A stretch of DNA of 34,701 nt from positions 1 to 34,701 of the forward strand of contig LKNA01000031.1 of NCBI GenBank assembly GCA_001564065.1, in the 5' to 3' direction. The DNA is from Chitinophagaceae bacterium T5-Br10_B2g13 (lineage in GTDB: Bacteria; Bacteroidota; Rhodothermia; Balneolales; Balneolaceae). This document shows positions 2,228 to 26,767 of the stretch, piece after piece. Under the pieces are notes generated by a model. That model ran no database searches. It was given only the letters and a program-made list of their open reading frames with translations, and was not told the DNA's origin. The first letter of the stretch is position 1. Each line of letters begins with the position of its first letter. The position numbers and the translations under genes were made by a program.

Positions 2228-3400
2228 TTACTCTACTGTCTGGTCGGAATAGATTTGAAACTGTTGCTCTATTTCTGCTGCTGATATAGTATCGCCGGAA
2301 ACAATCCAAAATCTGTATCGAAGCTTCAGGGATTCATCCTCTTCTAAAGAGTAGGGTATGAACTCGCCAAATCGGCCGTATTTGCGCTCTGACATTTCAG
2401 ATGGCCCCGGGTTTGAAGGATGACTCATATATGCCACAGTATAAGAATTTTCGTGGATTGAATATTGCATCGCATTCCATGGCACATTCTCCCACTCCTC
2501 TTCTCCTAATTCTTTATCGGAAGGATAGTGTGACCAATCACCGGGCCTGATAAATTGAGTTTCCCCGGAATGATCTGCCACGTATTGGGCGGCCCTGAAC
2601 TGCACACCAGCATGCTGAAGATCACCTGCCAATTCAGCGGGGCCTGCAACTGAAGTTAGTTTTGTATGGAAATCAATAAAAAAGCTGTGATCGTTATACC
2701 TGAACGCTCGTATATCCCGCGTTTCATTTAACATCACATTACCGTCATGATCCTTCCAGTGAATCTGTACGATATGCCCTCCAAAAACTGGCCCGGCAAT
2801 CTCCTCTTCGAACTCTTCGTGTTCACTTCTTTCTCCTTCATTCGCATGCCAGATATCCAGCTGTTTTTCATCAATCCTGAGCTGGTTATAACCAAAAAAG
2901 ATGCCCCTGTGATGAGGATACAATCCCCCTAAACCTTTAGTAATTAATTCACCGGATGCGGGGTCAAATACATGGTGAAATGGTTTCTTGGTTTCCTCTA
3001 TATTTTCAGTATCAAAAACTGGATGTTCGTACTGAATTAGAGGCTGACCATTGTGTTGTAACTGAACCGATTGATCCCCAGTACTTTGCCAGCTGAATTC
3101 AGTATCTGAACAGTTCTGTTCTTGATGGATTGTATATTCGATCGTCTCACCGGCCGGGAGCGTTGCCTGCCACCATACCCGAACTCCATCACTGGATAAT
3201 GGTTCGGCCTGTGCGGGAATTAATTCACCGCCAGTCTCAAGGCAATAACTCCCAAATGCACTATCCATTTCAAGATCGACATGAGTTAGTACATTATTGA
3301 GATAATGGTCACCAGCAGTATATTCAAATGATTGATTATTGGTGCCTGAACAATTGGCGATGAAAATAAATAGTACGATAATTACTGAAAGTAATTTCAT
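2228..3400 (-). CDS. DUF6807 ('PmoA family') lipoprotein
   Basis: A 390-residue protein with a short N-terminal hydrophobic segment ending IANC (Cys17), a slightly atypical lipobox, so probably a periplasmic or outer-membrane lipoprotein. The mid-region motif YPHHRGIFFG (residues 161-170) and the C-terminal block with SHPSNPGPSE are typical of the DUF6807 family. Databases often label this family 'methane oxygenase PmoA', which is misleading: it has no relation to membrane methane monooxygenase. The family is common in Planctomycetes and Bacteroidota carbohydrate loci next to Gfo/Idh/MocA and ThuA proteins, as here. Its biochemical role is not known to me. Two more members lie at 19720-22032. 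The conserved His-His pair suggests a metal or active site (inference). Confidence 0.8.
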   Translation of the reverse strand: MKLLSVIIVLFIFIANCSGTNNQSFEYTAGDHYLNNVLTHVDLEMDSAFGSYCLETGGELIPAQAEPLSSDGVRVWWQATLPAGETIEYTIHQEQNCSDTEFSWQSTGDQSVQLQHNGQPLIQYEHPVFDTENIEETKKPFHHVFDPASGELITKGLGGLYPHHRGIFFGYNQLRIDEKQLDIWHANEGERSEHEEFEEEIAGPVFGGHIVQIHWKDHDGNVMLNETRDIRAFRYNDHSFFIDFHTKLTSVAGPAELAGDLQHAGVQFRAAQYVADHSGETQFIRPGDWSHYPSDKELGEEEWENVPWNAMQYSIHENSYTVAYMSHPSNPGPSEMSERKYGRFGEFIPYSLEEDESLKLRYRFWIVSGDTISAAEIEQQFQIYSDQTVE

Positions 3401-3551
3401 GGAATCTTTTGTTAAGATTATTTTTTTATTATTTCTTCACGCTTTGACAAGAAGAATCCCCAATCTATGTCAAATATCGATATCTGAACATCATGGATTC
3501 CACTTCCGTAACTTTCTATAACAGGCATCTAAATAAGAAAATAATAGTTTA

Positions 3552-4880
3552 TCAGATACGCGGTTCCCATCCTTGTTCATAGGTACGACCCCACATACTC
3601 ATAGCTTCAGAATCACCGATGATGCGCCCATTTCTGGTGTTTATGTTTAACGAACGGCCCATTTTCTGAGAAATATTTCCAAGATGCAGTGCATGCACGC
3701 TGATTTGTCCTTCATCTATAGGTGAATTCAGTTGTTCACCTTCACGAATAGCCATTGCAAAATTGTGAACATGTGCATCTAATAAACCTCCTCCACCTAC
3801 TGTATCCAGCGGATCAACTTCTTCATCACGCATCACACTTTTGACCTCTTCGTTGTCCAGGTTATAGACTTTATAACCACCTCTGTCAATCATGATTGTA
3901 CCTTCAGTACCGTGAAGTGTCGAGCCTCGTCCTTTATCCCAAAAACCAAATCCATTACAGCTTCTTCCTTCCCAGTTTATGGACTTTCCTTCAGGAAAAT
4001 CATAGGTAACATTTTGCACATCATAAAATTCCCAGTCATCATCAAAATGGTAACGACCACCGTTTGAAGAAACTCGGTTAGGATGATCCACCCCTAAGGC
4101 CCACCGGCAAATATCATACTCATGGGTACCATTATTTAAAAGTTCTCCGGTACCGTATTTCCAAAACCAGTGCCAGTTATAATGGATTAGATTGTCACGA
4201 TAGGGTGTTCTGGGGGCTGGACCTTGCCACAGTTCATAATCGAGCCATTCAGGCACTTCTGCAATTTTACCATTCCCAATAGGGCCTCTGGAATTAGCAT
4301 AAAATGCTTTTGCATAATATACATCCCCAATAATTCCTTCACTGATATCCTGCATAGCTTGGATAGATTCAGAAGAAGATCGTTGCTGATTTCCCATCTG
4401 AACAACTTTACCATATCGTTGTTGCGCCTGTACAATCAGCTCTGCTTCCCGGGGATTATGACTGGCTGGCTTTTCTACATAAACATGCTTACCCGCCTTT
4501 AATGCCATGATTGTTGCAGCTGTATGCCAGTGATCCGGTGCTGCAATCACCAGAGCGTCAATATCAGGATCCTCAAGTGCTTTTCTAAAATCAGTTCCAT
4601 ATTCAGGTTTTCGTCCCTGTATTTCGCTTACTGATTCCGATAACTCCTCAAGTGGCCGACGATCTACATCAAAAATGGACTTTACTTCAGTTCCTTCTAC
4701 CTCGGCAAAAGATTCAGCAAGTGCACTTGCACGGCCTCTGCCCCCCATTATTGCTACGACTACCTTTTCATTCGGTGCATTTGCACCCCTTGCGAATGTG
4801 AACGGGCCTGTAAGACCAATGGCGGCTCCCGTTAATGCACTTGTCTTTATAAAATCGCGGCGATTCATTCTTTTTTTCAT
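3552..4880 (-). CDS. Tat-exported Gfo/Idh/MocA-family oxidoreductase (442 aa)
   Basis: A twin-arginine signal (NRRDFIK, Arg7-Arg8, then a mild hydrophobic stretch to about residue 32) sends the folded protein with its cofactor to the periplasm. Rossmann segment VVVAIMGGRGRA (40-51), PDHWH (115-119), EKP (136-138), GNQQRSS (163-169) and H253/D256 in NNGTHEYDICRW match the exported Gfo/Idh/MocA group. Related exported enzymes retain NAD(P) tightly, as glucose-fructose oxidoreductase does, and some oxidise sugars or glycosides. The substrate here is unknown. Intergenic gaps of about 150 bp on both sides leave room for its own promoter. It is full length, with no missing family residues that I can see. 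Confidence 0.87.
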   Translation of the reverse strand: MKKRMNRRDFIKTSALTGAAIGLTGPFTFARGANAPNEKVVVAIMGGRGRASALAESFAEVEGTEVKSIFDVDRRPLEELSESVSEIQGRKPEYGTDFRKALEDPDIDALVIAAPDHWHTAATIMALKAGKHVYVEKPASHNPREAELIVQAQQRYGKVVQMGNQQRSSSESIQAMQDISEGIIGDVYYAKAFYANSRGPIGNGKIAEVPEWLDYELWQGPAPRTPYRDNLIHYNWHWFWKYGTGELLNNGTHEYDICRWALGVDHPNRVSSNGGRYHFDDDWEFYDVQNVTYDFPEGKSINWEGRSCNGFGFWDKGRGSTLHGTEGTIMIDRGGYKVYNLDNEEVKSVMRDEEVDPLDTVGGGGLLDAHVHNFAMAIREGEQLNSPIDEGQISVHALHLGNISQKMGRSLNINTRNGRIIGDSEAMSMWGRTYEQGWEPRI

Positions 4881-5036
4881 AAATTAATATTTATGGTTTT
4901 AATCATTGATATATATGTATTTTCGTATAAGTAAATTATAGAATGCTATTCATAACCGGTCTTATGTTTTGTAGTCGGCTTTAGTAACTATCAAAATCAG
5001 AGGACATAACCATTCTATATACAATAAATAAAAATT

Positions 5037-6413
5037 TCAAACCAGATCTGACGGTCGTTTTTTATGTGGTTTCAGGCTCGTTAAACCCGCAATTTTAACC
5101 GGTTTTCCCGAAGCTGCACTTTTGCGGGCAGCAACACCTGTTAATACAGGCATAACCCCATCTCTGGTGCCTGCAGATTGATGCAGTGGATCGTCTATAT
5201 ATGGGTCTACAAACAGCTTATTCAGTAACAGAGGATCTCCTCCCCAATGACTACCTGAAGTAAAATCAACCGTTATTTTTTCCGATTCCTCACCAAGAGG
5301 TTTCAATAACCATTCCTGATGATTTTGAGAAGTTCCCCAACCGCCTTCCCTTCCTTCCAGACGCCCTTTGGTTCCTTTAAAGGCTATCCAATAGCCATCA
5401 TGGTCCGTATCAGAGGTTAGTGAGTAGTAAAGAAATGCGTTGTTGGCATAGGTTACCAAAGCTGAGTGTTTGTCGTGTGAGTCGATGTTATGGCGGAATA
5501 CGCAATTATCCCGAATATATCCGTCGTAATGCTCATTATCGGCATACATTTGTCGTAAATGGTCATTCGCATTAATATCCCAATGATAATCACATCTATC
5601 GGCGTGAGGACAGTTTCTGCAATTGGTTGATCTGAATGGGCCGTTCGATCCAAATATGTCTAGTGAATCCTTAGCGTATACTTCAACGGGGTCAGAGTCC
5701 AGAAACCAGTTTATCATATCAAAATAGTGAGTGTTTTTGTGCACCCAGAGAGTGCCACCGCGCTGGCTTTCACCATGCCAGCGCTGCATGTACCGTATTT
5801 GATGAGCATGATCGATATTCCAATGGAAATCAACCGTTCGGATATCACCGATGACACCTTCCATTAGTAACTCTTTCACTTTTGCTCTGTGAGGCGGATA
5901 GCGATAGTTTAAAGTCACAAATACATCATTCTCGTATTTTTTATCCGCATCGATAATTTGTTGGCATTTGTCTTCATCAATTGTGAGTGGTTTTTCACAA
6001 ACCACATCCACACCATGCTCAAGACTTGCAATTATGCAATTGTGATGTTCCCAGTCCCAGGTTGTTACAACCAGTCTGTCAGGATCAGTTTTCTCCAACA
6101 TTTCATCCAGATTTGTGAATGTTGGGCAACCAGCCCCCACATATCCATCAGCATATTCAAGCCTTCCGGGATTGGTATCGCATATTCCAACTATTTCAAG
6201 ATAATCTCCATAACCTTCAACCAGCGTTCTTCCGTACATAACGACCCCACGAACTCCCATTCCAACTACCGCTACCCTCATTTTTCCGTCTCTCTTCAAC
6301 CTTTTGGGCTTCTCCGGAGCTTTTGAAATTGTTGGCCCGACAAACATTGACCCTCCGAGTGCGGCGCTCGTAGTTTCAATAAACTTTCTTCTGGTAAAGT
6401 TATTCTTAGCCAT
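5037..6413 (-). CDS. Tat-exported Gfo/Idh/MocA-family oxidoreductase with an inserted cysteine cluster (458 aa)
   Basis: The Tat motif TRRKFIE (Arg8-Arg9) is followed by a hydrophobic stretch. The Rossmann glycine motif GMGVRG is at 51-56, EKP at 140-142, and the catalytic-domain HKNTHYFDM puts H229 and D232 in the family positions. An unusual segment at residues 265-304 carries Cys265, Cys268, Cys274 and Cys304 (CRNCPHADRC and later DNCVFRH), which could bind zinc or an Fe-S cluster. I recall similar Cys-rich inserts in other members of this subgroup, so it is probably a real subfamily trait. It lies downstream of the ThuA-like gene, and the 265-bp leader holds two ACCGGT-type near-palindromes that may be operators. 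Confidence 0.87.
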   Translation of the reverse strand: MAKNNFTRRKFIETTSAALGGSMFVGPTISKAPEKPKRLKRDGKMRVAVVGMGVRGVVMYGRTLVEGYGDYLEIVGICDTNPGRLEYADGYVGAGCPTFTNLDEMLEKTDPDRLVVTTWDWEHHNCIIASLEHGVDVVCEKPLTIDEDKCQQIIDADKKYENDVFVTLNYRYPPHRAKVKELLMEGVIGDIRTVDFHWNIDHAHQIRYMQRWHGESQRGGTLWVHKNTHYFDMINWFLDSDPVEVYAKDSLDIFGSNGPFRSTNCRNCPHADRCDYHWDINANDHLRQMYADNEHYDGYIRDNCVFRHNIDSHDKHSALVTYANNAFLYYSLTSDTDHDGYWIAFKGTKGRLEGREGGWGTSQNHQEWLLKPLGEESEKITVDFTSGSHWGGDPLLLNKLFVDPYIDDPLHQSAGTRDGVMPVLTGVAARKSAASGKPVKIAGLTSLKPHKKRPSDLV

Positions 6414-6492
6414 ATACAGCCGTTAATTTAGACTTGCAGTTTCTTTACATCAATCAACCTGTAGAAATTTATTAATTTCGTAAATTCACAGA

Positions 6493-6504
6493 GTTACCGG
6501 TGAC
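6493..6504. promoter_or_regulatory. Near-palindrome GTTACCGGTGAC upstream of the 458-aa oxidoreductase
   Basis: One mismatched pair away from a perfect dyad, with the same TTACCGGTRA core as the perfect site at 7575-7586. It lies 80 bp upstream of the start at 6413. LacI-family repressors typically bind dyads with a central CG such as this one. Candidate operator only. Confidence 0.4.
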
Positions 6505-6628
6505 TATTTCTCAATGAAAGAAGCTGATAATTTCGATAAAAAACAATTCGGATAATTTTAATCCTCTATAGCAACTCATTAACAAACTCAACATCCGTGT
6601 CTCACCTTAGAAAAGTTCGCGGAAAAAC

Positions 6629-6640
6629 TTTGCCGGTAAA
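6629..6640. promoter_or_regulatory. Near-palindrome TTTGCCGGTAAA between the ThuA-like gene and the oxidoreductase
   Basis: Differs from the perfect TTTACCGGTAAA at 7575-7586 by one base. It is 39 bp past the ThuA stop and 136 bp from the 6493-6504 copy, so both sites flank the probable promoter of the 458-aa oxidoreductase gene. Candidate operator. Confidence 0.45.
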
Positions 6641-6678
6641 GGATCTATATCAACATTGCCTACGACTTCTTAGATTTT

Positions 6679-7453
6679 TCACAGTTTTTCTACTGCCCAA
6701 AGAATTCCGTTTGTAATCTTATCCATAAATATTTCCTCTTCAAAGACATCGTTATTGTGTCCAAGGCTTGTTGCAAATACCCTGGTACTGTTGATTTCAT
6801 GTGTCCAGCTAACTGGATGAAACTCCTCTGTTTCCGGTCCATAAGCCCTCGCCAGTGGCTCTATTTTGCCCCAAAGCTGTTCAACGATATAGATTTCATC
6901 CACGGGAGTCATCCATCTGTCTGGAAATCCGCGCATTATCGGGTGATCCAGTGCAACGTTTTCCAATTCAAACTCCCGCTGACTTTCGTGCGCCATAGAC
7001 TGAAGACCCATAAATTCAAACCAAGGGTCAGCAGGTTCTGCAAATCGATAGCTATGAACTGCAGCATGAATTAATACGGCAGGTGTACCCATATGGTTTT
7101 CCACGAAATGTGCCACAAAATCGGGATCTGTAACCCTACCAAATCCTGTATTATGCACCACAACATCATAATTTTCAGCCCAGTTTTCTTCTTTTAAAAA
7201 TTGATACATGGTAGTCAGGCTCACCATCTCCTTCGTGGACAATTGTCCATTCGATCTGGTCGCCCAAACGTTTATTTACACCCTCAGTCAGCAAGCGTTC
7301 TTGTTCATCATAATCGTGCCACCCACCACCGGTAATTAGTAGAGCCTGAATCGGACTTTGCTCCTGAGATGAAAATGATAACAGGCTGAATCCAAAAATA
7401 AAGATGCAAATTAAACCAACTGACACAAATTTTTTGATTAACAAGGTGGCCAT
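6679..7453 (-). pseudogene. ThuA-like secreted protein, interrupted by a frameshift
   Basis: Two overlapping frames together make one ThuA-domain protein of about 257 residues. The N-terminal frame starts best at the ATG at 7453: it gives a signal peptide, then LLITGGGWHDYDEQ and WTIVHEGDGEPDYHVSIF, and stops at 7175. The C-terminal frame gives NWAENYDVVVHNTGFG, HMGTPAVLIHAAVHSYR, HPIMRGFPDRWMTP and SLGHNN, ending with TGA at 6679. Removing one A from the T5A4 tract (plus-strand 7192-7200) fuses them as VSIFKEENWAENYD, which restores the family alignment. ThuA proteins have a class I glutamine-amidotransferase-like fold and accompany sugar catabolism; their function is poorly defined. The upstream in-frame TTG at 7492 is a worse start. 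The lesion may be a homopolymer sequencing error. Confidence 0.85.
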
Positions 7454-7543
7454 AATTATGGTTTTGATTGGTTTAATAAACTCACTATTCAAGATTCATT
7501 TTAACAATGAAATGCTAATAGCTTCCTACATTCTGTTTTCCAT

Positions 7544-7620: not shown

Positions 7621-7681
7621 ATTCAATAATATACCTTTTATTCCAAGAGGTTTAAAAGTGGGGCAAATTAAGCAGGCAGAT

Positions 7682-8689
7682 ATGAGTAGTATACATACCA
7701 AACTTTGGAAGGTCTTCTTATCATCCATAATTGTTTTATTTATTCTGCAAGGGTGTGGTGATTCCAAATCTGACGAAGAGCATAAAACAATTATCCTGGC
7801 TCATGCCATGCACTTAACCCATCCGGTTTCGATAGCAATGGAACGGATGGCGGAACTCCTTGACGAATATTCCGATGGTCAATTAAAAATCGAGATTTAC
7901 CCAACGGGTCAATTGGGGGGGGAACGCGAACTCCTTGAGCTGATACAAATCGGTACCATTGGAATGACAAAAGTTTCAGCCGGTTCGTTGGAAAATATTG
8001 TACCTGATATGCGTGTCTTTAGCCTTCCCTATCTATTCAGGGACAGTGAGCATATGGCCGATGTATTATGGGGGGATATTGGTGAAGAAATGCTAGAAAC
8101 GGGTACTAAGTATAGATTAAAAGGAATTGCCTATTACGACGCAGGGAGCCGTAGTTTTTATACGAAAGACAGGGTGATTAATTCACCTGAAGATTTAGCC
8201 GGAATGAAAATAAGGGTTATGCCAAGTGCCATGGCAACAAAGCTTCTCCGAACGTTTAACGCCTCTCCAACCCCGCTTGCCTACGGTGAATTATATACAG
8301 CTTTTCAGGGAGGTATAGTTGATGCAGCAGAAAATAATCCCCCCAGCTTTTACACATCCCGGCACTATGAAGTCTGCAATTATTATATTCTGAATGAACA
8401 TACTACGATTCCAGATGTTCTAGTTTTAGGTACACATGTATGGAATAGCTTGTCTGATCAGGAAAAAGAGTGGTTACAGCGTGCTGTTGATGATTCTGTA
8501 GAACTGCAAAGAGTACTTTGGGAAGAGTCGGTTGAAGAATCGTATAGAATTGTAGAAGAAGCCGGGGTCGAAATTATTCATCCCGACAAGGAACCATTCA
8601 TAGAACAATCTTTACCCCTTTATGATGAATTTAGAGAAAACGACCCTGAACTATACAAGTGGGTTGAACGAATACGACAGGTCGAATAA
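7682..8689 (+). CDS. TRAP transporter solute-binding lipoprotein (DctP family)
   Basis: The extracytoplasmic solute receptor of a TRAP transporter, about 335 residues. From the ATG at 7682 it begins with a lipoprotein signal ending ILQGC. A GTG eight codons upstream (7658) has a better Shine-Dalgarno-like AGAGG (7646-7650) and is an alternative start. Family blocks are present: IYPTGQLGGERELLE, SLPYLFRD, the ligand-binding segment GMKIRVMPS whose arginine pairs with the ligand carboxylate, and VDAAENNPPSFYTSRHYEV. DctP proteins with this block pattern often bind uronates or related sugar acids, which fits uxuA nearby. No symbol is given because dctP implies C4-dicarboxylates. It is the first gene of a three-gene operon. 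Confidence 0.93.
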   Translation: MSSIHTKLWKVFLSSIIVLFILQGCGDSKSDEEHKTIILAHAMHLTHPVSIAMERMAELLDEYSDGQLKIEIYPTGQLGGERELLELIQIGTIGMTKVSAGSLENIVPDMRVFSLPYLFRDSEHMADVLWGDIGEEMLETGTKYRLKGIAYYDAGSRSFYTKDRVINSPEDLAGMKIRVMPSAMATKLLRTFNASPTPLAYGELYTAFQGGIVDAAENNPPSFYTSRHYEVCNYYILNEHTTIPDVLVLGTHVWNSLSDQEKEWLQRAVDDSVELQRVLWEESVEESYRIVEEAGVEIIHPDKEPFIEQSLPLYDEFRENDPELYKWVERIRQVE

Positions 8690-8713
8690 ATCAATTTCAA
8701 AAATTAGCTATCC

Positions 8714-9235
8714 GTGCGAAAAATAATTGACTCAATAGTCAGAAATACGCTTGTATTCCTTATGAGTCTGTTGGTACTGGCGGTTGTATGGCAAGTGTTT
8801 TCCAGGTACATCTTGAATGCACCCAGTACATTTACAGATGAGCTATCACGTTTTTTACTGATTTGGATAAGTCTTTTAGGAGCTGCTTATTACTCAGGAA
8901 AAAACGCCCATATTGCATTCACAATTTTCCCATCCTGGCTTGGCCCAGAGAATAGAAGGCGATTGAATATTCTAATTCATACGATCGTAATCATCTTCGT
9001 TTTGTGTGTGTTTGTTATAGGAGGCGGAATGCTGGTATACTATACCTTTACATATCTGCAACTTACCCCATCACTACAATTGCCCATGGCTGTAGTATAT
9101 TCTATCGGCCCTATTAGCGGACTTTTAATCATCTATTATAAATTAAGCGACATCCTGGACCTGTTTAAATTAGATCCGGAAAAAATCAGCGAAACGAAAC
9201 ACTTCGACAAAGACGAATTTAAGGGATCAATCTAA
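8714..9235 (+). CDS. TRAP transporter small membrane subunit (DctQ family)
   Basis: A 173-residue membrane protein with about four transmembrane segments and the DctQ signature TFTDELSRFLLIWISLLGA followed by SGKNAHI. It bridges the solute-binding protein and the large permease. The GTG start at 8714 is chosen because the next in-frame ATG (8762) would remove the first part of the first membrane helix. It begins 24 bp after the binding-protein gene and ends 10 bp before the large permease gene, so the three form an operon. Confidence 0.92.
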   Translation: MRKIIDSIVRNTLVFLMSLLVLAVVWQVFSRYILNAPSTFTDELSRFLLIWISLLGAAYYSGKNAHIAFTIFPSWLGPENRRRLNILIHTIVIIFVLCVFVIGGGMLVYYTFTYLQLTPSLQLPMAVVYSIGPISGLLIIYYKLSDILDLFKLDPEKISETKHFDKDEFKGSI

Positions 9236-9245
9236 ATCGAACCTA

Positions 9246-10544
9246 ATGGGATTAATTGAGATACTTACACTGGTATTAAGCTTTCTAATACTCTTGGCAA
9301 TTGGAGTTCCTGTTGCATGGACACTGGGTATTGCAAGTGTTCTTACCATCCTTTTTAGTTTAGAGTCTACCACAGCTTTTGTCACAATGGCTCAACAGAT
9401 TCTAACGAGTTTGGATAGTTTCACTTTGCTGGCCATTCCGTTTTTTATTTTAGCTGGCCAGTTAATGAATAAAGGAGGAATTGCTACCCGACTAATCGAT
9501 TTTGCAAAAAATATTGTCGGGTCTTTACCCGGTGGTTTGGCACATATTAATGTTGTAGCAGCGATGCTATTTGGAGCCATTGCTGGATCATCCGTTGCTG
9601 CAGCTTCAGCGATCGGTAGTATTTTGGGGCCACGAATGGAGAAAGAGGGATATACCAAAGAGTTCGGGGCGGCAATCAATATTTCTTCATCTACCATGGG
9701 TTTAATCATTCCTCCCTCCAATATCTTAATTGTCTATTCACTTGCCAGTGGAGGAACATCCATCGCTGCACTATTTATTGCTGGTTATATACCCGGTATT
9801 CTTACCGGATTAATACTGATGGGAGTAGCCGCTATCTGGGCCATGCGAAAAAATTTCCCGCTCGGTGAAAGAAGCTCCTTTAAAGCACTATTCAGATCAT
9901 TTGTAGAAGCACTACCCAGTTTATTGTTACTGATTATTGTTATTGGAGGCATAGTGGCTGGTATTTTTACAGCAACAGAAGCAGCAGCCATTGCAGTAGT
10001 ATACACGCTTGGACTGGCTTTTTTCTATAAGGAAATATCCCTGAAAAGCCTGCCAGACGTACTTATGGGATCTGTGCAAACAACGTCAATTGTGATGTTA
10101 CTGATTGCTACTTCTATAAGTATGTCTTGGGTAATGTCTTTTGGACACTTACCACAATCTATTAGTGAAGCACTTCTCTCACTAAGTGATAATAAGATTG
10201 TACTACTGCTGATAATAAATCTAATCCTTCTATTTGTGGGGATGTTTATGGATATCACTCCAGCAGTATTGATCTTTACTCCAATCTTTTTACCAGTGGT
10301 ACTCGAGTTGGGAATCGACCCGGTTCATTTCGGGATCATAATGATTATGAATCTCTGTATTGGAATTTGTACACCACCTGTTGGAACGCTTCTATTTGTT
10401 GGCGTGAGTGTAGCCGGTACTACGATCGAAAAGGTGATTAAACCTCTGTTACCTTTATTTGTCGCTATGCTAATAACCCTGCTGTTAGTCACCTTCTGGG
10501 AAGATTTAAGCCTTGCTCTGCCACGCCTGTTTGACTTGATGTAA
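9246..10544 (+). CDS. TRAP transporter large permease subunit (DctM family)
   Basis: A 432-residue polytopic permease of normal length. Conserved segments include IPFFILAGQLMNKGGIA, AMLFGAIAGSSVAAASAIGS, MGLIIPPSN, GMFMDITPAVLIFTPIFLP and GICTPPVGTLLF. It is the sodium-coupled channel subunit that takes substrate from the solute-binding protein across the inner membrane. The ATG at 9246 follows the DctQ stop by 10 bases. No intrinsic terminator is visible directly after its stop. The transporter probably brings in the sugar acid that UxuA and the SDR process (inference). Confidence 0.94.
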   Translation: MGLIEILTLVLSFLILLAIGVPVAWTLGIASVLTILFSLESTTAFVTMAQQILTSLDSFTLLAIPFFILAGQLMNKGGIATRLIDFAKNIVGSLPGGLAHINVVAAMLFGAIAGSSVAAASAIGSILGPRMEKEGYTKEFGAAINISSSTMGLIIPPSNILIVYSLASGGTSIAALFIAGYIPGILTGLILMGVAAIWAMRKNFPLGERSSFKALFRSFVEALPSLLLLIIVIGGIVAGIFTATEAAAIAVVYTLGLAFFYKEISLKSLPDVLMGSVQTTSIVMLLIATSISMSWVMSFGHLPQSISEALLSLSDNKIVLLLIINLILLFVGMFMDITPAVLIFTPIFLPVVLELGIDPVHFGIIMIMNLCIGICTPPVGTLLFVGVSVAGTTIEKVIKPLLPLFVAMLITLLLVTFWEDLSLALPRLFDLM

Positions 10545-18206: not shown

Positions 18207-19652
18207 CTATCTTCTTACAAGACCCGGAATTTGTGACGCTTTATATGGATGACGCTGAGGTCTTGAGAGCATTGCATTTGCCTCGTCATCATTTTTGAAA
18301 CGTTCGTTTATAGGATCCCAATATAGCTTACGAGGTAATTTCATCGCAATATGTGAAATAAGGCATGCCGTAGTGGAGCGGTGAGAAACCTCAGCAGGTG
18401 TTGATGTTGCAGTTGTACGATTTCTGATGCAGCGTAACCAATTATGGTGATGTGATTCACCTGACTCGCCATATAATCGCATTGCATCTGACCCCAGTTC
18501 TGAAAGTAGTGATGCATCGCTGGCCTGCAAGGGGCCTTCTTCCACTGAACCGGTTCCAGGATCACTTGCTGTTACAGCACCACCGCCTCTTGTCACAAAA
18601 ATCCACCCTTCATCTCCTTTAAACCGGATGCCATTTGGAAATACCTCCGGATCAGAAACTACCATCGTAACTCCGTTTTTATATTTGGCTTCTACTCTAA
18701 AATCGCCATGAACATCCCATAGCCCATCGTAATCTGGGTCATCAGTCGGGAATACTGCTTCAGCCTCTATTTCAACCGGTCCGGTATATTCGGTACCCAT
18801 TCCCCAATGTGCAATATCAAGATGATGGGCACCCCATCCTGTAATCATGCCTGCAGAATAATTTTCGCAACGCAGCCAACCCGGACGTCCCTCAATACCT
18901 GCTTTAGTGTGTACCCTATCTTCTGAATAAGGCAGGTATGGTGTTGTTCCTAACCAGGCATCATAATCAAGACCTTCTGGCACCTCTTGTGGTCCTGGAT
19001 TTCCTCCGGGTGGATCGTACGGAAGACCAATTTCAATAGTGTGTAGATTCCCAACTCTTCCATTACGAACCAATTCACACGCTCTTCTAAATGTATCGTT
19101 TGAACGTTGCTGGCTTCCTATTTGAAATACAGTACCCGTTCGGTGTAAAATATCATTCATAAGTCGACCTTCTTCGACCGTCAATGAGTGTGGCTTTTGT
19201 AAATAGATATCTTTTCCTGCCAAGGCAGCTTCAATTGTAGGCAACAAATGGGCATGATCAGGCGTGCTAATAATTACAGCATCTATATCCGACTCTTCAG
19301 CAAGCATCTCCCGGTAATCCTGGTATGTTTTTACCTCTACATAGTCTTCCGGGCGTTGTATATCTTCGCTGTTATAAAAGTTTTTTGCCCATTCATTCGC
19401 TTTTTCTACACGATTACGGTCTACATCACACGCTGCAACTAAACGAGTACCGGGGTCACTAAGCACTCCGGGTAAATCATGTCCAATTGCAATTCTTCCC
19501 CATCCAATTTGAGCAATATTAATGTTTTTGCTTGGAGCACGTTTTCCCATTACAGAGGAGGGTATAATCGACGGTGCCATAAACAAACCCGCAGAACCCA
19601 ATATTGATTGTTTTAAGTATTCCCGTCTGGTTATCCCGTTTTTCTTTTTCAT
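18207..19652 (-). CDS. Tat-exported Gfo/Idh/MocA-family oxidoreductase (481 aa)
   Basis: The Tat motif TRREYLK (Arg9-Arg10) precedes a hydrophobic stretch. The Rossmann segment is INIAQIGWGRIA (44-55). The catalytic tripeptide is QKP (152-154) rather than EKP, with the lysine retained, and GSQQRSN (179-185) follows. GWGAHHLDIAHWG gives His276, His277 and Asp279. The C-terminal part has the aromatic-rich end typical of the exported planctomycete/Bacteroidota group. It lies 67 bp downstream of the DUF6807 genes and is probably co-transcribed with them. It is likely a periplasmic sugar or glycoside oxidoreductase with tightly held NAD(P). The substrate is unknown. Confidence 0.87.
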   Translation of the reverse strand: MKKKNGITRREYLKQSILGSAGLFMAPSIIPSSVMGKRAPSKNINIAQIGWGRIAIGHDLPGVLSDPGTRLVAACDVDRNRVEKANEWAKNFYNSEDIQRPEDYVEVKTYQDYREMLAEESDIDAVIISTPDHAHLLPTIEAALAGKDIYLQKPHSLTVEEGRLMNDILHRTGTVFQIGSQQRSNDTFRRACELVRNGRVGNLHTIEIGLPYDPPGGNPGPQEVPEGLDYDAWLGTTPYLPYSEDRVHTKAGIEGRPGWLRCENYSAGMITGWGAHHLDIAHWGMGTEYTGPVEIEAEAVFPTDDPDYDGLWDVHGDFRVEAKYKNGVTMVVSDPEVFPNGIRFKGDEGWIFVTRGGGAVTASDPGTGSVEEGPLQASDASLLSELGSDAMRLYGESGESHHHNWLRCIRNRTTATSTPAEVSHRSTTACLISHIAMKLPRKLYWDPINERFKNDDEANAMLSRPQRHPYKASQIPGLVRR

Positions 19653-19719: not shown

Positions 19720-20664
19720 TTATTCATTCCTATATGAATCAAAATATTCACTGATTCCAGCATCATTATGATCTCCAGAATGGATAAGAACGCGGTATCT
19801 GAGTTCCACAATGTCTCCCATATCTAATACCGTACCGATATCTTCGTCTTCAGGCCAATATAGAGGTGTTGGAGAGAAAAATCCGTAATCTCTTGTAAAC
19901 CAAGGGGAAGGGTACCATTCATTTGAAGGATGCTGCATGATGGTCATCCCTTCAATTTGGTCCCCCCTGTTCCCATAATAGGTCATCCAGGAAGAGGCTT
20001 TCCCAAAAGTTCCTTCCTCACCTTCCTCTCCTTCTGCATTTACCATACTCCCCCCATTTATAACCGCAAGATCAGGGTCCATCCGGCCACTAAACAGGGA
20101 GTGATTGGTTCTTTCAATTGTAACGTCTTGTAGCATCAGCAGACTAATATTAAAGTCTATCTGATAGATTTGATCTTCAGGTGAGGTAATGATTATCTGT
20201 CGCGTATCCTTAATCGGGGCATCAGCACCGGGACGAACCCATATATTTTCATTTACAATTGTAACACGATCATCCCCTTCTTCAACAATTTCAGTTTTTA
20301 CAGAAATTATCTGTCCCTCTTCAAGACCTTCCTGCCAATAGTTTCCGCCGTTTACGTGATCCGCCCCGAAAAATAGTGAGCTATGGTGTGGAAAATCACT
20401 ATTTCGTTTTGACGTTACACTGGCCCCAGAGGGTCCATTGACCGGATAGAAGTACGGGTACTTTTCATCCTGAGAAAACTTATAACTGGTAAAAAATCGG
20501 CCATCAATGTAGACATCAACCTTTGATCCGATTTTTTCAGCTGTTAGGGTTGATTGCGCTGCTGCATTATCTGGTAATGCAGAGAGTGTTAGAACAAGAA
20601 TCAATACCGCGGAAGCTACTGTACTTATTAACTTACATGAGTTGCTATGACAGAATATATTCAT
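19720..20664 (-). CDS. DUF6807 ('PmoA family') secreted protein, short form
   Basis: A 314-residue exported protein with a signal peptide ending DNAAAQS (about residue 38). It has the core family pattern: YPYFYPVNGPSG (69-80), FPHHSSLFFGADHVNGGNYW (91-110) and MQHPSN followed by WFTRDYGFFSPTP. This is the compact, core-domain form. The His93-His94 pair aligns with HHRG of the 390-aa member and HYHHYG of the 440-aa member. It starts 45 bp after the 440-aa member, so the two are adjacent and probably co-transcribed. Function is unknown; the family is not a methane monooxygenase subunit despite the database name. Confidence 0.85.
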   Translation of the reverse strand: MNIFCHSNSCKLISTVASAVLILVLTLSALPDNAAAQSTLTAEKIGSKVDVYIDGRFFTSYKFSQDEKYPYFYPVNGPSGASVTSKRNSDFPHHSSLFFGADHVNGGNYWQEGLEEGQIISVKTEIVEEGDDRVTIVNENIWVRPGADAPIKDTRQIIITSPEDQIYQIDFNISLLMLQDVTIERTNHSLFSGRMDPDLAVINGGSMVNAEGEEGEEGTFGKASSWMTYYGNRGDQIEGMTIMQHPSNEWYPSPWFTRDYGFFSPTPLYWPEDEDIGTVLDMGDIVELRYRVLIHSGDHNDAGISEYFDSYRNE

Positions 20665-20709: not shown

Positions 20710-22032
20710 TTAGTCCAGGCTTACAGGATTCACATCAATTTTGGGGGAATTTGCAAAATCGCTCCAATATCGATTGGCTTCGTTTTCATTAATTTCACCA
20801 TCATAAACTAACATTCGATATTTCAAGGCATATGTTTTACCCGACTTCAGTTCCCAATCTCTGTCCTGGGCAGGGTTAAAGTTGATATATACATTCTCAA
20901 CTCCCTGATTAGCTCCTTCCGGCCAGATTCTTAATTGTTCCGGATAGTTAAAATTAGAGGGGTTTGTCATAAATAAGATACCTGAGGTACCTTCTTCTAC
21001 ATCTGATTCTCCGTTTACATCAATCCATCGCGCACGAGTGGCATTGGCGTTACTTTTATCATACCCTTCAGACGTAAGGAGTGTTGTATTGTTATCATTC
21101 CAGGTTTCAGTTGCCCGTAGGCTAAAGCCCTGGTATCGATATTCTTTAATCGTAAGGGGCTCATCTGTTGCAGGGTTTAGAGTGGAGACAAAGTCAATCA
21201 GCCACACATTCTTTTCAGGATCAACATTCCAAACATTTACTTCCCATTGTTCATTAAGAGCTACTTTTTCTCCTGTCGGGCCTGTAAAATCCACATGATT
21301 ATGCAGAGCTCTAAACCCGCCAAATACTTCGCCTTCATTTCTTTCGATAACCTGTTTTGCCTGCACAGTTCCCTGACCGTCACCAAGATTCCAGAAGTCT
21401 ACTTCCCGTCCTTCAAATTCGGTGCGTGTCCAGGGATTCCAGATTCCATAGTGGTGATAATGATCTGGCGGCTGAATTCGACTGAGTACTTTTCCACCGG
21501 GAGACCAGATCGGATGAATGTAACCTCCGCGTTTAAATAACTCATCTACTCCGTCCGGTACATCTTTAAGGGCATATCTGTAATTTAAAACATTCTTTTC
21601 ACCAATCTTAACCAGAAGGCTTTCCCCGTCATCATATACATTAACGGATTCGTTATTGGCAGACGATGCTCCACTAGCGTCGTCAACAACTCGCAGTTCA
21701 AAATTTCTTTCAGTATCTGGTTCAGTTTCTCCTTCTAGTATCCATGTCAACTGGTCTGGATTTCCCTGTTTTAGCTGTGATGTAATATAATTTTCGCTGC
21801 CATTGGTAACTTCTACCAGCTGCAATTGACCTTCATGCAGTTTTATGTGCACTCCGTTTAAACTTGCTATAACCGGAGTATTGTAAAAGCTTAAATCTCC
21901 GGAATTAACAGTTAACTCTGCCACTACATCAGATTGTGCGTGTACAACATTGACATTAAAAAAGAGAAGAAACGTTGTTAGAAGCACACCTGTTGGAAAC
22001 AGACTCGAAATTTTTGTGATCGTTTTCATCAT
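20710..22032 (-). CDS. DUF6807 ('PmoA family') secreted protein, long form
   Basis: A 440-residue protein with a signal peptide to about residue 33 (VVHAQS). An N-terminal extension of roughly 130 residues with beta-rich composition precedes the DUF6807 core. The core carries RGGYIHPIWSPGGKVLSR (168-185), PPDHYHHYGIWNPWTRTEF (188-206) and VDFWNLG (211-217). The dense His/Trp/Tyr motif looks like a ligand or metal site. It is the first gene after susD, 109 bp downstream and separated by a hairpin, the place usually held by a surface glycan-binding protein or a hydrolase in a SusCD locus. That position suggests a direct part in processing the imported glycan (inference). Confidence 0.85.
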   Translation of the reverse strand: MMKTITKISSLFPTGVLLTTFLLFFNVNVVHAQSDVVAELTVNSGDLSFYNTPVIASLNGVHIKLHEGQLQLVEVTNGSENYITSQLKQGNPDQLTWILEGETEPDTERNFELRVVDDASGASSANNESVNVYDDGESLLVKIGEKNVLNYRYALKDVPDGVDELFKRGGYIHPIWSPGGKVLSRIQPPDHYHHYGIWNPWTRTEFEGREVDFWNLGDGQGTVQAKQVIERNEGEVFGGFRALHNHVDFTGPTGEKVALNEQWEVNVWNVDPEKNVWLIDFVSTLNPATDEPLTIKEYRYQGFSLRATETWNDNNTTLLTSEGYDKSNANATRARWIDVNGESDVEEGTSGILFMTNPSNFNYPEQLRIWPEGANQGVENVYINFNPAQDRDWELKSGKTYALKYRMLVYDGEINENEANRYWSDFANSPKIDVNPVSLD

Positions 22033-22141: not shown

Positions 22142-23800
22142 TTAATATCCCGGGTTTTGCGGATAATCAGAAGCTGTTCGTGATCTTTGGTTGGCTGGAA
22201 TGGGTCGCAACATATGGTGATCCTGGATGTTACCGGCTGCCGAAGCAGTATTATGTAAGCGAACCCTTTCGACCAGTTTTCCGGTTCGTTTTAGATCCAT
22301 CCATCTTTTTTGCTCACCATATAATTCCCTGCCTCGTTCATCCAGAATAAAATCAATGTCAATATCTCCTGCGTTGACTAACATTTGATCTTCCTGACCT
22401 GGGTGGGCCGCTCGTTGCCGTACAGCATTAATATAATTTACAGCATCACCAGGGCGTCCATCCTGCAGAAGTGCTTCAGCTGCAAATAAATATGTTTCCG
22501 CAAGCCGATAGACTATATAATCACGGGAACCCATTGGCTCATTGACGGATGGTCTCTTAAAATCATCCACTTTTTTCAGGTTTGGAAACATATTGATTGG
22601 AAAGTACCAGTCGTCATCCGCATTATCTGCATTCCAGGTAAACAAGTTAACTCCCGGTAGGCGTCCTTCAATCTCATTAACATCAGCCTGTGTTAAAAAC
22701 TCGTCAGTTATATAGATGGCGGTATCGCCTACAGCAGCTCCGTCAGGAATACCTGAAGTTGTATTAAAATGCCATGTATCCTGAAATGTTTTTTCATACC
22801 TGGCATCCTGGTCAAGCGGCCTGAAGTTCTCTAACCCAAAAGGAGTTGGACGGAATCGAATCCATGGACGGCCATAACCCGGTTCAAGTGCGCGATCTAA
22901 GCCATCATTAAAGGTTTCGTACCATGGCCTGTAGTGCATGTGGCTCTGATTACCTGGTGCATTGAGAATAGGATCTTCTGTATACTGTACAGCCCAGATT
23001 ACCTCATCGTGCCGTTCGTTATCGTGATCAAAAACGTCTGCAAAATCGTCTAACAATCTGTGATTAAAATTGTTAATCACATCGTCTGCCAGAGTTGCCG
23101 CACGAGCAAAATCATCACTTTCTGCAAAATCAGTATACCCGCGAGTGAGTAAAACCTGTGAAAGCAAATGCATAGCTGCTGGTTGTGTAGCTCTGCCAAA
23201 TTGACTTTGAGTGGCTGGAAGATGATCAATCGCAAACTGAAGATCGTCTTCAATTGCAGCGTAGATAACATCTACTGGTGTACGTTCGGCATCCGTTTCA
23301 ACTCCAATTGTTTCATCAAGTGTCAGATGAACAGCACCAAAGTGCTCAACAAGAATGAAATAGTAGTGTGCCCTTAGAAATCGAACCTCAGCAATTTTGA
23401 GATCTTTTTCTTCCTGAGTTAGGTCTTCCAGAGCATCTGCACGATTAATTGCAGCATTTGTGGTGTTAATGGCCTGATAGAAATTATTCCACAGATGCCA
23501 GAAAGGAGAGGATTCTGAATTCATCTCTGCGTCGTAATTATTCATGTAATGAAAACCACCATGGCCCCCATTCGTGATAATATCAGTACCCATAACAGAG
23601 AGGTTTCCTCCCTGTTCTGTACCGTAGTATTGTCTGAGTAGTGCATACGAAGCGTTTACCGCATCCTGGAAACCTTCCGGTGTGCTATAATGTGCGTCGA
23701 CGGTTACTCCTGATACAATTTCCTCATCCAAAATATCACATGAAACCGCTATCAGAGACATCAAGAAGAGTGCTGAAAATAAATATTTTAATTTTTTCAT
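22142..23800 (-). CDS. SusD/RagB-family outer-membrane glycan-binding lipoprotein
   Basis: A 552-residue protein with lipobox IAVSC (Cys21), exported to the cell surface. An N-terminal TPR-like SusD segment with ALLRQYYG and VRFLRAHYYFILVEHFG leads to the C-terminal SusD domain with YRLAETYLFAAEALLQ, AVNYINAVRQRA, ILDERGREL and LRPIPANQR. It captures oligosaccharide and acts as the lid of its SusC partner, whose gene ends 18 bp upstream. Length and ends are normal. The ligand cannot be predicted from sequence alone. Confidence 0.95.
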   Translation of the reverse strand: MKKLKYLFSALFLMSLIAVSCDILDEEIVSGVTVDAHYSTPEGFQDAVNASYALLRQYYGTEQGGNLSVMGTDIITNGGHGGFHYMNNYDAEMNSESSPFWHLWNNFYQAINTTNAAINRADALEDLTQEEKDLKIAEVRFLRAHYYFILVEHFGAVHLTLDETIGVETDAERTPVDVIYAAIEDDLQFAIDHLPATQSQFGRATQPAAMHLLSQVLLTRGYTDFAESDDFARAATLADDVINNFNHRLLDDFADVFDHDNERHDEVIWAVQYTEDPILNAPGNQSHMHYRPWYETFNDGLDRALEPGYGRPWIRFRPTPFGLENFRPLDQDARYEKTFQDTWHFNTTSGIPDGAAVGDTAIYITDEFLTQADVNEIEGRLPGVNLFTWNADNADDDWYFPINMFPNLKKVDDFKRPSVNEPMGSRDYIVYRLAETYLFAAEALLQDGRPGDAVNYINAVRQRAAHPGQEDQMLVNAGDIDIDFILDERGRELYGEQKRWMDLKRTGKLVERVRLHNTASAAGNIQDHHMLRPIPANQRSRTASDYPQNPGY

Positions 23801-23818
23801 TGTTCTAAGACCTTTCGC

Positions 23819-26767
23819 TTAAAAATTTAGATTAACACCCATTGTAAAGAGTCGTGTAGTTGGACCGATTCCAGCTCCTATTACACCGTTATAAACCTCT
23901 GGATCAAGTCCGCCTTCCAAATTTGAGAATATAAAGGGCGTTTCAGCATTGACATATACTCGTGCTGATCTCATTCCAAGCGTCGTCAATACAGATGATG
24001 GCAGATTATAGCCAAACTGGATATTACGAACCTTCAGAAAATCACCGGAATCATAACCTCTTGATGAGCTATTCAGAGGGAACTCTCTGCTTCCGTCAGG
24101 CCTTGGAGTGTCGTTCGAAGGGTTATCGGGAGTCCAGTAGTTTACATTCAGGTTGTTATACCGTCCCTGAAGTGTACTGTTATTAACTTTGAACTCATTA
24201 TAAATCGTATGTCCAAAGCTTCCGAAAAGTAGAACCGAAAGGTCGAAATTTCTGTATCTGAAACGATTGCCAATACCAAGATTAAACTTTGGCATTTCAG
24301 ATCCTATAATAACTCTGTCCTCTTCAGTAATACTTCCACTTCCCGTTACATCTCTTACTCTGATTTCACCGGGTGATCTGCCATATTGAGCAGCTTCAGC
24401 AGCTTCATTCTCCTGCCATATGCCAATCATATCATAATCATACCAAACCGTCAGAGGTTCGCCGATAAACCATTCGTTACCAATGTCATCTTCACCTGCA
24501 CCAAAAAGCTCGACAATACTTTCAGTGTTACCAAATAGATTAAAGTTTGAAGTCCAGCTGAAATTGCTTGTATGAACGTTATTTGTGTTCAAGCTGAATT
24601 CAAAACCCTCATTTCTTGTATGACCGATATTTTCCAACACAGAATTAAATCCTGATGTTACTGGAATTACTCTTTGTAATAAGAGGTCAGTGGTATTGGT
24701 TTGATAAACTTCAATGCTACCGGCAATTCTGTCTTCCCACAACCCAAAGTCTAATCCAAAGTTTAAGGTTGCAGAAGTTTCCCATCTCAGGTCAGGGTTT
24801 GCCAGAGAAGTCGGTCTGTATCCAAAACCCGGGCTATCTTGAAAAGAGTAAGCCGTTCTGCTCAGGCCTCCTCTTGTCTGATAAGGATTAATCCCTGTAT
24901 TTCCTGTTAATCCATAACTTACCCTGAGTCGCAAATCGGAAAACAGACTTTGATTGGCCATAAATGACTCATCGCTTACTCTCCATGCAAAAGCCGCAGA
25001 AGGGAAAAAGCCCCATTTTTGACCTTCAGAAAGTCTTGATGAGCCGTCATACCTACCGGTAAGAGTGAACAGGTATCGATCTAACAGTCGATAGTTGACA
25101 CGTGCCATATAAGACATCAAGCCCCATTCTTCTAAGTTACTGCCTAAACCTTCAATAGTCTCCCCAGAACCAATGTTATGAAATCGCTGAGTTTCATAAG
25201 GAAGACCTGAAGCTGAAATATTAGACCACTCTGTTCTTGACTCCTGAACACTAAACAACCCAGTTATATCTATTGAATGGATGTCAAAATCTTCTGAGTA
25301 TGTAAGTATATTTTCAAAGGTATACGTAATTTTACGTTCGTGTTCTTTTTCAGCAAACGCAGAGCCTAAGCCTCGTGCCCCGGTTTCACTGCCCTGGAAC
25401 AATCCACGTCTCCAGTCCTGGAAATCTGGACCGAAATTCATCCTGTAATTCAGATTATCGAGAATGTTTAAATCAGCGTAGATGTTGCTAAAAATACGAG
25501 TTCGCTCCCTTTCATCTATATACGCTCCATCCACTAAATCGGCAAGAGGGTTTAAGATTAACGGATCTGCACCCGGTCTTAAAATTAAGTTTCCATCGTC
25601 ATCATAAGGTTCTGCAAGTGGATTTGTAGCTAAGGCTCCTCCATATGGATTTGAACCCCAATTTTGCGTTTGATTTGACAGCTGAGTTGAAGTTCCAACC
25701 CGTAGCCTCTCGGACACCCTGTGATCGAGATTTAACCGGAACGTGTTTCTGGTAAAATCCTGGGTTGTAATAACTCCCTGATCATAAAAGAAGTTACCTG
25801 AAATTGAAAACTGTGTACTTTCGCTTCCTCCCTGAATTCCCAGCTGATGATTTTGCTGAACTCCTCTATCCAGTAGTTCATCAACCCAATTCGTGTTAAC
25901 TCCTCTTTGAACTGCGTCAAGTTCAGCCGATGTAAAATCTCTGCCCGCAGCTTCTTTCATTTGTGCAAATTGTTGACCATCCATCATATCTGGTGTTGCC
26001 ATCACCGTCCGAAGGCCCGTGTGACCGGCGTAAGAAACAGTTGTTGGGTGGTCACCACCACGGTTTGTTGTAATCAAAATAACGCCGTTAGCTCCTCTTG
26101 AGCCATAAATCGCTGTAGCTGATGCATCTTTCAGCACTTCCATCGACTCAATATCACTTGGATTAATATCATTGACTCCACCCTCTAGCGGAATTCCGTC
26201 CACAACATAAAGAGGATCATTCGAAGCCGTTAAAGATCGCCGGCCTCTAACCCGGATTGTAACACCCTGACCCGGCCGATTTCCTGAAGAAAGAGCCATC
26301 ACTCCTGCTGCCCGACCCTGTAAAGCTTGCCCGGCATCAGTTATAGGTACTTCCCGGATATCCCGGCTTGAAACAGATGCTACAGACCCTGTAATATCTC
26401 TGCGTTCGACCGCTCCATATCCTACGACTACAAGTTCTCCCCCTTCAATGGCTCTTGGTGTCAATATTACTTCAATTTCACTACGGCCATCTATTGGTAC
26501 TTCTAATGTTTCGTAACCTATATAAGAAAATATGAGAGTTTCATTTGGTGATGGTGCAGTCAGTGTAAACTCACCATTAATGTTGGTAGATGTACCCTGC
26601 TCGGTCCCCTGAATTAGGATACTAACCCCTGGAAGCGCTTCCCCGTCATCAGCAGAAAAAACAGTACCACTCACTGAATGACTTTGTGCAATTATCGATT
26701 GACTCAATCCCGCTAATAAAATCCAGCCAATTAAAAAATAGAAAAAGCGACTAGCTATTATATTCAT
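23819..26767 (-). CDS. SusC/RagA-family TonB-dependent outer-membrane transporter
   Basis: A 982-residue protein with a signal peptide to about residue 28. A carboxypeptidase-regulatory-like domain (SVSGTVFSADDGEALPGVSI, then FSYIGYET) is followed by the linker VVVGYGAVERRDITGSV, the plug with LQGRAAGV and VDGIPLEGGVNDINPSDIES, and a 22-stranded barrel ending VNLNF, the usual C-terminal aromatic signal for barrel assembly. It imports the substrate held by SusD, using TonB energy. It is the first gene of the leftward locus; its promoter region is shared with the divergent FG-GAP lipoprotein and holds several palindromes. Confidence 0.96.
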   Translation of the reverse strand: MNIIASRFFYFLIGWILLAGLSQSIIAQSHSVSGTVFSADDGEALPGVSILIQGTEQGTSTNINGEFTLTAPSPNETLIFSYIGYETLEVPIDGRSEIEVILTPRAIEGGELVVVGYGAVERRDITGSVASVSSRDIREVPITDAGQALQGRAAGVMALSSGNRPGQGVTIRVRGRRSLTASNDPLYVVDGIPLEGGVNDINPSDIESMEVLKDASATAIYGSRGANGVILITTNRGGDHPTTVSYAGHTGLRTVMATPDMMDGQQFAQMKEAAGRDFTSAELDAVQRGVNTNWVDELLDRGVQQNHQLGIQGGSESTQFSISGNFFYDQGVITTQDFTRNTFRLNLDHRVSERLRVGTSTQLSNQTQNWGSNPYGGALATNPLAEPYDDDGNLILRPGADPLILNPLADLVDGAYIDERERTRIFSNIYADLNILDNLNYRMNFGPDFQDWRRGLFQGSETGARGLGSAFAEKEHERKITYTFENILTYSEDFDIHSIDITGLFSVQESRTEWSNISASGLPYETQRFHNIGSGETIEGLGSNLEEWGLMSYMARVNYRLLDRYLFTLTGRYDGSSRLSEGQKWGFFPSAAFAWRVSDESFMANQSLFSDLRLRVSYGLTGNTGINPYQTRGGLSRTAYSFQDSPGFGYRPTSLANPDLRWETSATLNFGLDFGLWEDRIAGSIEVYQTNTTDLLLQRVIPVTSGFNSVLENIGHTRNEGFEFSLNTNNVHTSNFSWTSNFNLFGNTESIVELFGAGEDDIGNEWFIGEPLTVWYDYDMIGIWQENEAAEAAQYGRSPGEIRVRDVTGSGSITEEDRVIIGSEMPKFNLGIGNRFRYRNFDLSVLLFGSFGHTIYNEFKVNNSTLQGRYNNLNVNYWTPDNPSNDTPRPDGSREFPLNSSSRGYDSGDFLKVRNIQFGYNLPSSVLTTLGMRSARVYVNAETPFIFSNLEGGLDPEVYNGVIGAGIGPTTRLFTMGVNLNF

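Follow-up and report, generated by a model that had tools for sequence, protein, structure and literature searches.

Nasseri et al. reportedly described in 2024 an oxidation-elimination-hydration pathway for glycosides. In the 3-keto pathway of Bacteroides (BT2156-BT2160), BT2158 is a periplasmic glycoside 3-dehydrogenase required for several disaccharides (PMC11300592) and the 3-ketotrehalose hydrolase BT2157 belongs to DUF1080 (PMC9007349), and mutants lacking BT2157 or BT2158 grew without a defect on sugars of the raffinose family (PMC11501099). Here, we describe a locus spanning positions 1104 to 26767 in a 34,701-nucleotide stretch of DNA, called the window (contig LKNA01000031.1 of Chitinophagaceae bacterium T5-Br10_B2g13), which resembles this and other known systems in part. 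Like the Bacteroides pathway, it encodes exported oxidoreductases of the Gfo/Idh/MocA family within a glycan locus, two of them (TatA and TatC, see below) nearest to that branch, but it is without DUF1080 and a TIM-barrel hydratase, has DUF6807, ThuA and PF16490 proteins, and its output is sugar-acid catabolism. With the Caulobacter LacABC/DUF1080 lactose route it would share periplasmic oxidation ahead of glycosidic cleavage, although that route uses another type of dehydrogenase and DUF1080 is proposed for the cleavage (PMC9007349). The logic of keto-glycoside elimination would also be alike in the Agrobacterium tumefaciens O-glycoside beta-eliminase AtOGE and in PuCGE, which are Mn-dependent enzymes (PMC10628242). 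From Ashwell-type hexuronate catabolism (UxaC, SDR/UxuB, UxuA, KdgK, Eda and TRAP), the window has UxuA, a short-chain dehydrogenase/reductase (SDR) and a TRAP transporter, but couples them to exported oxidoreductases and DUF6807.

The proteins encoded in the window were scanned against Pfam and NCBIfam (DctQ, DctM and the piece at 7175-7492 against Pfam only), and TatA, TatB, TatC and DUF6807a, b and c are labels coined in this analysis. Read on the minus strand from 26767 to 1104, the locus begins with adjacent genes for SusC (23819-26767; TIGR04056, 840 bits) and SusD (22142-23800; PF07980, E 3.8e-35), which makes it a SusCD-type locus, followed by the exported DUF6807a (20710-22032; PF14100, E 4.1e-67) and DUF6807b (19720-20664; PF14100, E 1.6e-61), the Gfo/Idh/MocA protein TatC with a twin-arginine start recognized by eye (18207-19652; PF01408, E 2.5e-14), a Gfo-fold lipoprotein of family PF16490 (16660-18048; E 7.1e-108) and the SDR, a candidate fructuronate/mannonate reductase (15815-16576; PF13561, E 1.6e-64). 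Next come a lipoprotein with a DUF7133 propeller, HEAT repeats and cytochrome c (12319-15732; PF23500, E 5.6e-30), the mannonate dehydratase UxuA (11035-12252; TIGR00695, 466 bits with a cut-off of 199.55), ThuA (6679-7492), TatB, again with a twin-arginine start seen by eye (5037-6413; PF01408, E 6.9e-18), TatA, whose Tat signal is recognized by Pfam and NCBIfam (3552-4880; PF01408, PF10518), DUF6807c with a lipoprotein-like start (2228-3400; PF14100, E 7.1e-43), and a Gfo/Idh/MocA protein with no signal peptide visible by eye, hence called cytosolic (1104-2165; PF02894, E 1.7e-33; PF01408, E 3.6e-27). The genes dctP, dctQ and dctM for a complete, hexuronate-type TRAP transporter lie within this array on the plus strand (7658-10544; PF03480, PF04290, PF06808) and had been missed in the preliminary description of this DNA, whose list of SusC/SusD, three DUF6807 proteins, SDR, UxuA and the propeller/HEAT/cytochrome c lipoprotein was otherwise confirmed by Pfam and NCBIfam. 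Its five Gfo/Idh/MocA proteins, four of them exported, were also recovered, with the reservation that the one at 16660-18048 has an altered NAD loop, and its ThuA is a PF06283 match (E 1.1e-26 on 6679-7242) in a frameshifted gene, the N-terminal part of which (7175-7492) lies in a different frame. In a syntenic relative, ThuA is intact with 255 aa. The same description had stated that no glycoside hydrolase (GH) or polysaccharide lyase (PL) is encoded, and indeed neither scan found a GH or PL family among the proteins of 1104-26767; outside these limits, the locus has a PL22-like gene on one side and a PL11-like gene, which is interrupted, on the other, and these two qualify the statement.

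This gene content can be read as a polysaccharide utilization locus (PUL) type of system for a hexuronide or a modified hexuronate, in which oxidation replaces glycosidases in a manner akin to the 3-keto glycoside pathway, a reading whose probability we place a little short of even. SusC and SusD would bring the substrate into the periplasm, where TatC, and perhaps also TatA and TatB, would oxidize a ring hydroxyl, probably that at C3, using tightly bound NAD(P). Processing of the keto intermediate might then fall to the exported DUF6807 proteins, the PF16490 lipoprotein and either ThuA or DUF6807b, its apparent stand-in, so that this set would cover elimination, hydration and re-reduction, the jobs of DUF1080, the TIM-barrel protein and Gfo in the 3-keto pathway. 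The released sugar acid would cross into the cytoplasm via the TRAP transporter and be degraded through fructuronate, mannonate (SDR) and 2-keto-3-deoxygluconate (KDG; UxuA), and the DUF7133-cytochrome c lipoprotein, which contains one CIRCH motif and matches TIGR02603 above its cut-off (93.5 bits) and TIGR02604 slightly under it (121.2 against 122.2 bits), may accept electrons. The proposal builds on gene content, conserved linkage, gene fusions and co-occurrence with UxaC, and on a predicted fold for DUF6807a; from these we infer the substrate class, C3 oxidation, the assignment of proteins to steps and that a bond is cleaved at all. Within it, hexuronate as the substrate class appears fairly secure, and oxidation by an exported Gfo protein is likely.

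Among chains in the PDB, 8tdf is nearest to both TatA (E 4.4e-23) and TatC (E 3.2e-25), and 3cea is nearest to TatB (E 5.4e-17), with 8tdi matched by TatC (E 1.6e-7) and TatB (E 8.2e-9). By their PDB titles, 8tdf and 8tdh, the entries nearest to TatA and TatC, are each a 'dehydrogenase' and 8tdi is a 'glucuronide-3-dehydrogenase'. The PF16490 protein has the normal GxGxxG loop replaced by PGHFHA; PGHFH occurs in all 41 aligned sequences with DKP retained, and the lipobox-like cysteine C18 is conserved in at least 90% of them. DUF1080, annotated as 3-keto-disaccharide hydrolase, stands beside DUF6807 and Gfo genes in one related locus (L107) and in G069, a genome of a different genus, and a Hymenobacter tibetensis plasmid carries DUF6807, a TatC-type Gfo (51% identity) and PF16490, then a cupin, DUF1080 and another Gfo, and further on another pair of SusC and SusD and then GH115. 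In a Runella plasmid, the genes for DUF1080 and an AP_endonuc_2 TIM barrel have between them a Gfo gene with 37% identity, as if one dehydrogenase branch could work with either partner set. With these structural neighbours and with DUF1080 in the clusters of some relatives, the suggested tie to keto-glycoside chemistry finds support. The run of genes in L107 also contains a LarA-like gene with a lactate racemase N-terminal domain (L107:8653-9963).

The arrangement of these genes is conserved. An alignment scan of genome contigs with DUF6807a gave at least 572 relatives, and the best 80 loci were compared, that is, those most closely related, often lying on short contigs and, by their titles, mostly from Bacteroidota, with some metagenome-assembled genomes of Planctomycetota, KSB1 and Acidobacteria. 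A TatC-type Gfo (best match among the profiles used) is present in 63 of the 80, PF16490 in 42, SusC in 23, SDR in 19, UxuA in 13, DctM in 5 and DUF1080 in 3, and ThuA has a separate gene in 24 loci and is part of a DUF6807 fusion in 16. Four loci without a long DUF6807a match were set aside, and 61 of the remaining 76 had at least 3 kb of DNA downstream of DUF6807a. Within those 3 kb, 49 of the 61 have a TatC-type Gfo and two have another Gfo. The density of TatC-type Gfo genes was 63 in 723 kb near DUF6807a compared with 4 in 366 kb far from it. DUF6807a and an exported Gfo downstream of it form a conserved module, and since the arrangement recurs elsewhere it is not a product of chance. DUF6807b and ThuA rarely occur together: within 6 kb of DUF6807a in the 76 loci, both were found in three, DUF6807b only in 21 and ThuA only in 34 (Fisher P 1.7e-5, uncorrected for kinship of the loci), and G069 has a single DUF6807-ThuA protein in place of the DUF6807a and b pair. 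Such a fusion was confirmed by Pfam in all four proteins examined (L033, L052, L054 and L185), and a fusion of DUF6807 with DUF7133, HEAT and cytochrome c in both of those examined (L037:7843-11856, 1337 aa; L038:44-4003, 1319 aa); DUF6807 open frames of about 1270-1340 aa exist in 6 of 247 genomes, with further domains confirmed for that of L037 alone. Because natural gene swaps and fusions exist, the function of DUF6807 and ThuA is directly testable.

Several lines connect the locus to uronates, as the preliminary description had proposed, and UxuA, the SDR, the TRAP transporter and the distribution of UxaC all uphold this. The SDR scored 194.6 bits against the NCBIfam model for D-mannonate oxidoreductase (cut-off 281). 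DctP shares R165, R186 and the asparagine of AENN with its two best PDB relatives in an alignment inspected by eye, and these relatives are presumably sugar-acid-binding TRAP receptors. Two arginines and an asparagine have been reported for glucuronate binding by TRAP receptors (PMC7660916). Relatives also have a second DUF6807 cluster (L036), which contains, by Pfam, UxaC, UxaE, ApbE, a PfkB-type kinase and 2-keto-3-deoxy-6-phosphogluconate aldolase along with TRAP genes; its ApbE, a flavin mononucleotide transferase, is encoded at L036:6970-7899. When 247 genomes were sampled evenly from the phylum of the window, the glucuronate isomerase UxaC was found in 30/30 genomes with DUF6807 and in 58/217 without it, counts that are uncorrected for phylogeny. 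The association persists in genomes without GH10 (7/7 against 21/173), without AraA (14/14 against 26/184), without GH67 (13/13 against 30/189) and without all three (3/3 against 16/167, P 0.001). Clustering within 40 kb of DUF6807 is modest, with three pairs for GH115 (0.50 expected), two for GH67 (0.54) and seven pairs involving six genes for UxaC (1.35). In G000, the genome bin of the window, UxaC is encoded outside the window on C194 and C210.

Of the 247 sampled genomes, 30 from 11 families have DUF6807 itself, a count of this protein family and not of the whole module; among 14 control genomes it is confined to Caulobacter vibrioides, where UxaC, GH67, GH115 and GH10 occur as well. The model of DUF6807a (pLDDT 91.7) predicts with confidence a galactose-mutarotase-like fold, which by Foldseek is common to a PL26 lyase, an accessory domain of alpha-mannosidase and mutarotases. 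The preliminary description had held that a clear GH or PL fold in one of these proteins would speak against it, and this check came out mixed: the predicted fold is shared with PL26, but membership of PL26, hinted at by Foldseek, was unsupported by profile comparison (hhalign probability 24 over 94 N-terminal columns). The beta-domain fold is alike in DUF6807a and the PL26 exo-rhamnogalacturonan lyase, although DUF6807a has half the length. DUF6807 profiles gave no match better than E 0.15 to PDB sequences. A literature search outside supplements, bioRxiv and subscription papers found no paper on DUF6807 function, with one paper only naming the family, and none turned up that is listed with the phrase 'PmoA family protein' when this name was sought along with ThuA, Gfo and PULs. 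It can be suggested, as a tentative and somewhat doubtful extension, that DUF6807 represents a new class of keto-sugar lyase or hydratase which, with an exported 3-dehydrogenase, a repurposed PF16490 and ThuA or a second DUF6807, would constitute an independent and widespread 'non-hydrolase' means of hexuronide cleavage in the periplasm. Prediction of glycan loci usually relies on GH and PL genes, and if the module cuts or converts uronides oxidatively, surveys of carbohydrate-active enzymes (CAZymes) would miss such loci. A conserved gene set (DUF6807, ThuA, PF16490 and TatC-type Gfo) can now be named together with a substrate class, and because relatives occur in many other bacteria, the cluster is a concrete target in the search for a new route of glycan breakdown.

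A number of results weigh against oxidative cleavage. The top NCBIfam model for TatA and TatC, BT_2158 'glycoside 3-dehydrogenase', reached 134-141 bits with a cut-off of 750. The Pfam and NCBIfam scans found no DUF1080 in the window, with three elsewhere in G000, and no TIM barrel in the window other than UxuA, which matches AP_endonuc_2 below the cut-off; because both partners are absent, the locus is not classed as a member of the 3-keto pathway. DUF6807 has no known activity, 10 of the 61 loci lack a Gfo in the 3 kb that follow DUF6807a, and 18 of the 76 have neither DUF6807b nor ThuA near it. Enrichment in DUF6807 genomes extends to GH10 (23/30 against 44/217), GH67 (17/30 against 28/217), AraA (16/30 against 33/217) and GH115 (11/30 against 28/217), so part of the UxaC signal reflects a general trait of glycan degraders. 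UxaC is nearly universal in genomes positive for GH10, AraA or GH67, and within these its link with DUF6807 is not significant (P 0.09, 1 and 1, respectively). GH genes, alpha-glucuronidases among them, do stand near some DUF6807 copies, but they are no constant part of the operons. With the bin contaminated at 8.87% and the contig possibly misbinned, the lack of GHs carries less weight, and a TRAP importer and UxuA fit a free acid as well.

The last point leads to an alternative that we regard as possible, though on balance improbable, namely that GH and PL enzymes encoded elsewhere do the cleaving and that the locus only takes up the freed sugar acid, unmodified or modified, for instance 4-O-methyl-glucuronate or another epimer, and rearranges it, oxidizing and then re-reducing it, so that it can enter the mannonate/KDG route. 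UxuA and the arginine-arginine-asparagine pattern of DctP reported for glucuronate receptors (PMC7660916) would suit such a role, and so would DUF6807 copies close to GH67, GH115 or GH10 in L104, G297, G263, G126, G069 and the Hymenobacter plasmid. For instance, L104 has a URO-D gene and DUF6807a, then GH10 and GH67, and in G069 a GH115 gene is 6 kb from one DUF6807 gene. When 79 of 86 unassigned co-directional neighbour proteins were scanned (seven open-ended fragments, of which L086 was scanned separately, were left out and one further such fragment was kept), the families listed, 25 of 68, included GH67 and GH10 once each, DUF2264, which we take to be GH154, five times, BNR_4 twice, a sulfatase once and URO-D 21 times, the last counting for uptake of a free acid. 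BNR_4 includes the PL42 lyase FoRham1 (PMC8377490). On the opposite strand, a GH29-type fucosidase is encoded in L061 and a GH2 beta-galactosidase in L079. Arguing against mere salvage, SusC and SusD directly adjoin the core, several co-directional runs consist of DUF6807, ThuA and two Gfo genes alone (e.g. L051-L053), and G000 gave no match to GH67, GH115 or GH10, subject to the same binning caveat. The URO-D gene often lies upstream of DUF6807a (e.g. L104:450-2824). The URO-D family includes corrinoid methyltransferases, and such a gene, if it encodes one, could point to O-methylated uronates.

A conventional pectin or rhamnogalacturonan locus, whose polymer would be cut by the PL22-like and PL11-like proteins of the flanks with DUF6807 and Gfo as accessories, is unlikely, although both flanks bear some resemblance to lyases. 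The product of 47-949 (minus strand, near the contig end), a PL22-like beta-propeller with a signal peptide seen by eye, has oligogalacturonate lyases of PL22 as its nearest PDB chains (3pe7, E 5.2e-4; 3c5m, E 1.3e-3) and scored 16.7 bits against PF14583, Pectate_lyase22 (cut-off 30). Its full-length G069 homologue (424 aa, 93% identical) also stays under that cut-off with 20.3 bits, its residues 62-321 can be aligned with PL22 (E 0.0017), and a homologue in G063 adjoins PL26-family genes. A single-sequence AlphaFold model of 47-949 was discarded (pLDDT 47.9). At the other end, an FG-GAP gene on the minus strand (32555-33922) is broken by an in-frame stop, and its intact homologue (L148:7827-9251), 97% identical to the larger window piece, passes RGL11_C, the C-terminal domain of PL11, with 36.2 bits (cut-off 27); the Pfam scan did not detect RGL11_C in the window pieces, and this PL11-related homologue had no match among PDB sequences at E 0.01. 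Against a role in the locus, both window flank copies appear damaged or cut, and a PL22-like gene was labelled in none of the 80 related loci (phmmer, E 1e-5). Moreover, positions 66-1040 and 32555-33811 have about 90% DNA identity, with orientation kept, to two G069 genes about 6 kb apart, both in one 8.5-kb stretch that is about 40 kb from the syntenic DUF6807 locus on the same G069 contig. In that locus, identities are 92-93% for the cytosolic Gfo, 87% for DUF6807c, 84% for TatC, 83% for TatB, 78% for SusC/D and 73% for PF16490. The G+C content of the window ends is 0.49 and 0.52, compared with 0.41 for the stretch between. Insertion of an island, rearrangement or misbinning are candidate causes of the G069-like ends, and as the flanks are near-neighbours in G069 and the bin is contaminated, the contig may derive from a G069-like organism.

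It is very improbable that the exported Gfo proteins are NAD-dependent glycosidases like GH109, whose enzymes have the Gfo fold: GH109 chains are matched by TatA (2ixa, E 8.5e-6) and TatB (6t2b, E 4.8e-8), but the dehydrogenases 8tdf and 3cea score far higher with these two proteins, none of the 52 PDB matches of TatC is a GH109 chain, and with nearest solved relatives outside GH109 such an identity is weak.

Beyond SusC, on the plus strand, a LacI-family regulator is encoded at 31278-32345 (PF00356, PF13377); a search of the window for its operator found no perfect CG-centred palindrome of 14-20 bases and one imperfect 18-mer at 3470. Upstream of it, also on the plus strand, lies a gene for an exported FG-GAP/UnbV_ASPIC protein (27434-31147; PF13517, PF07593), a type that is labelled near DUF6807 in 4 of the 80 related loci.

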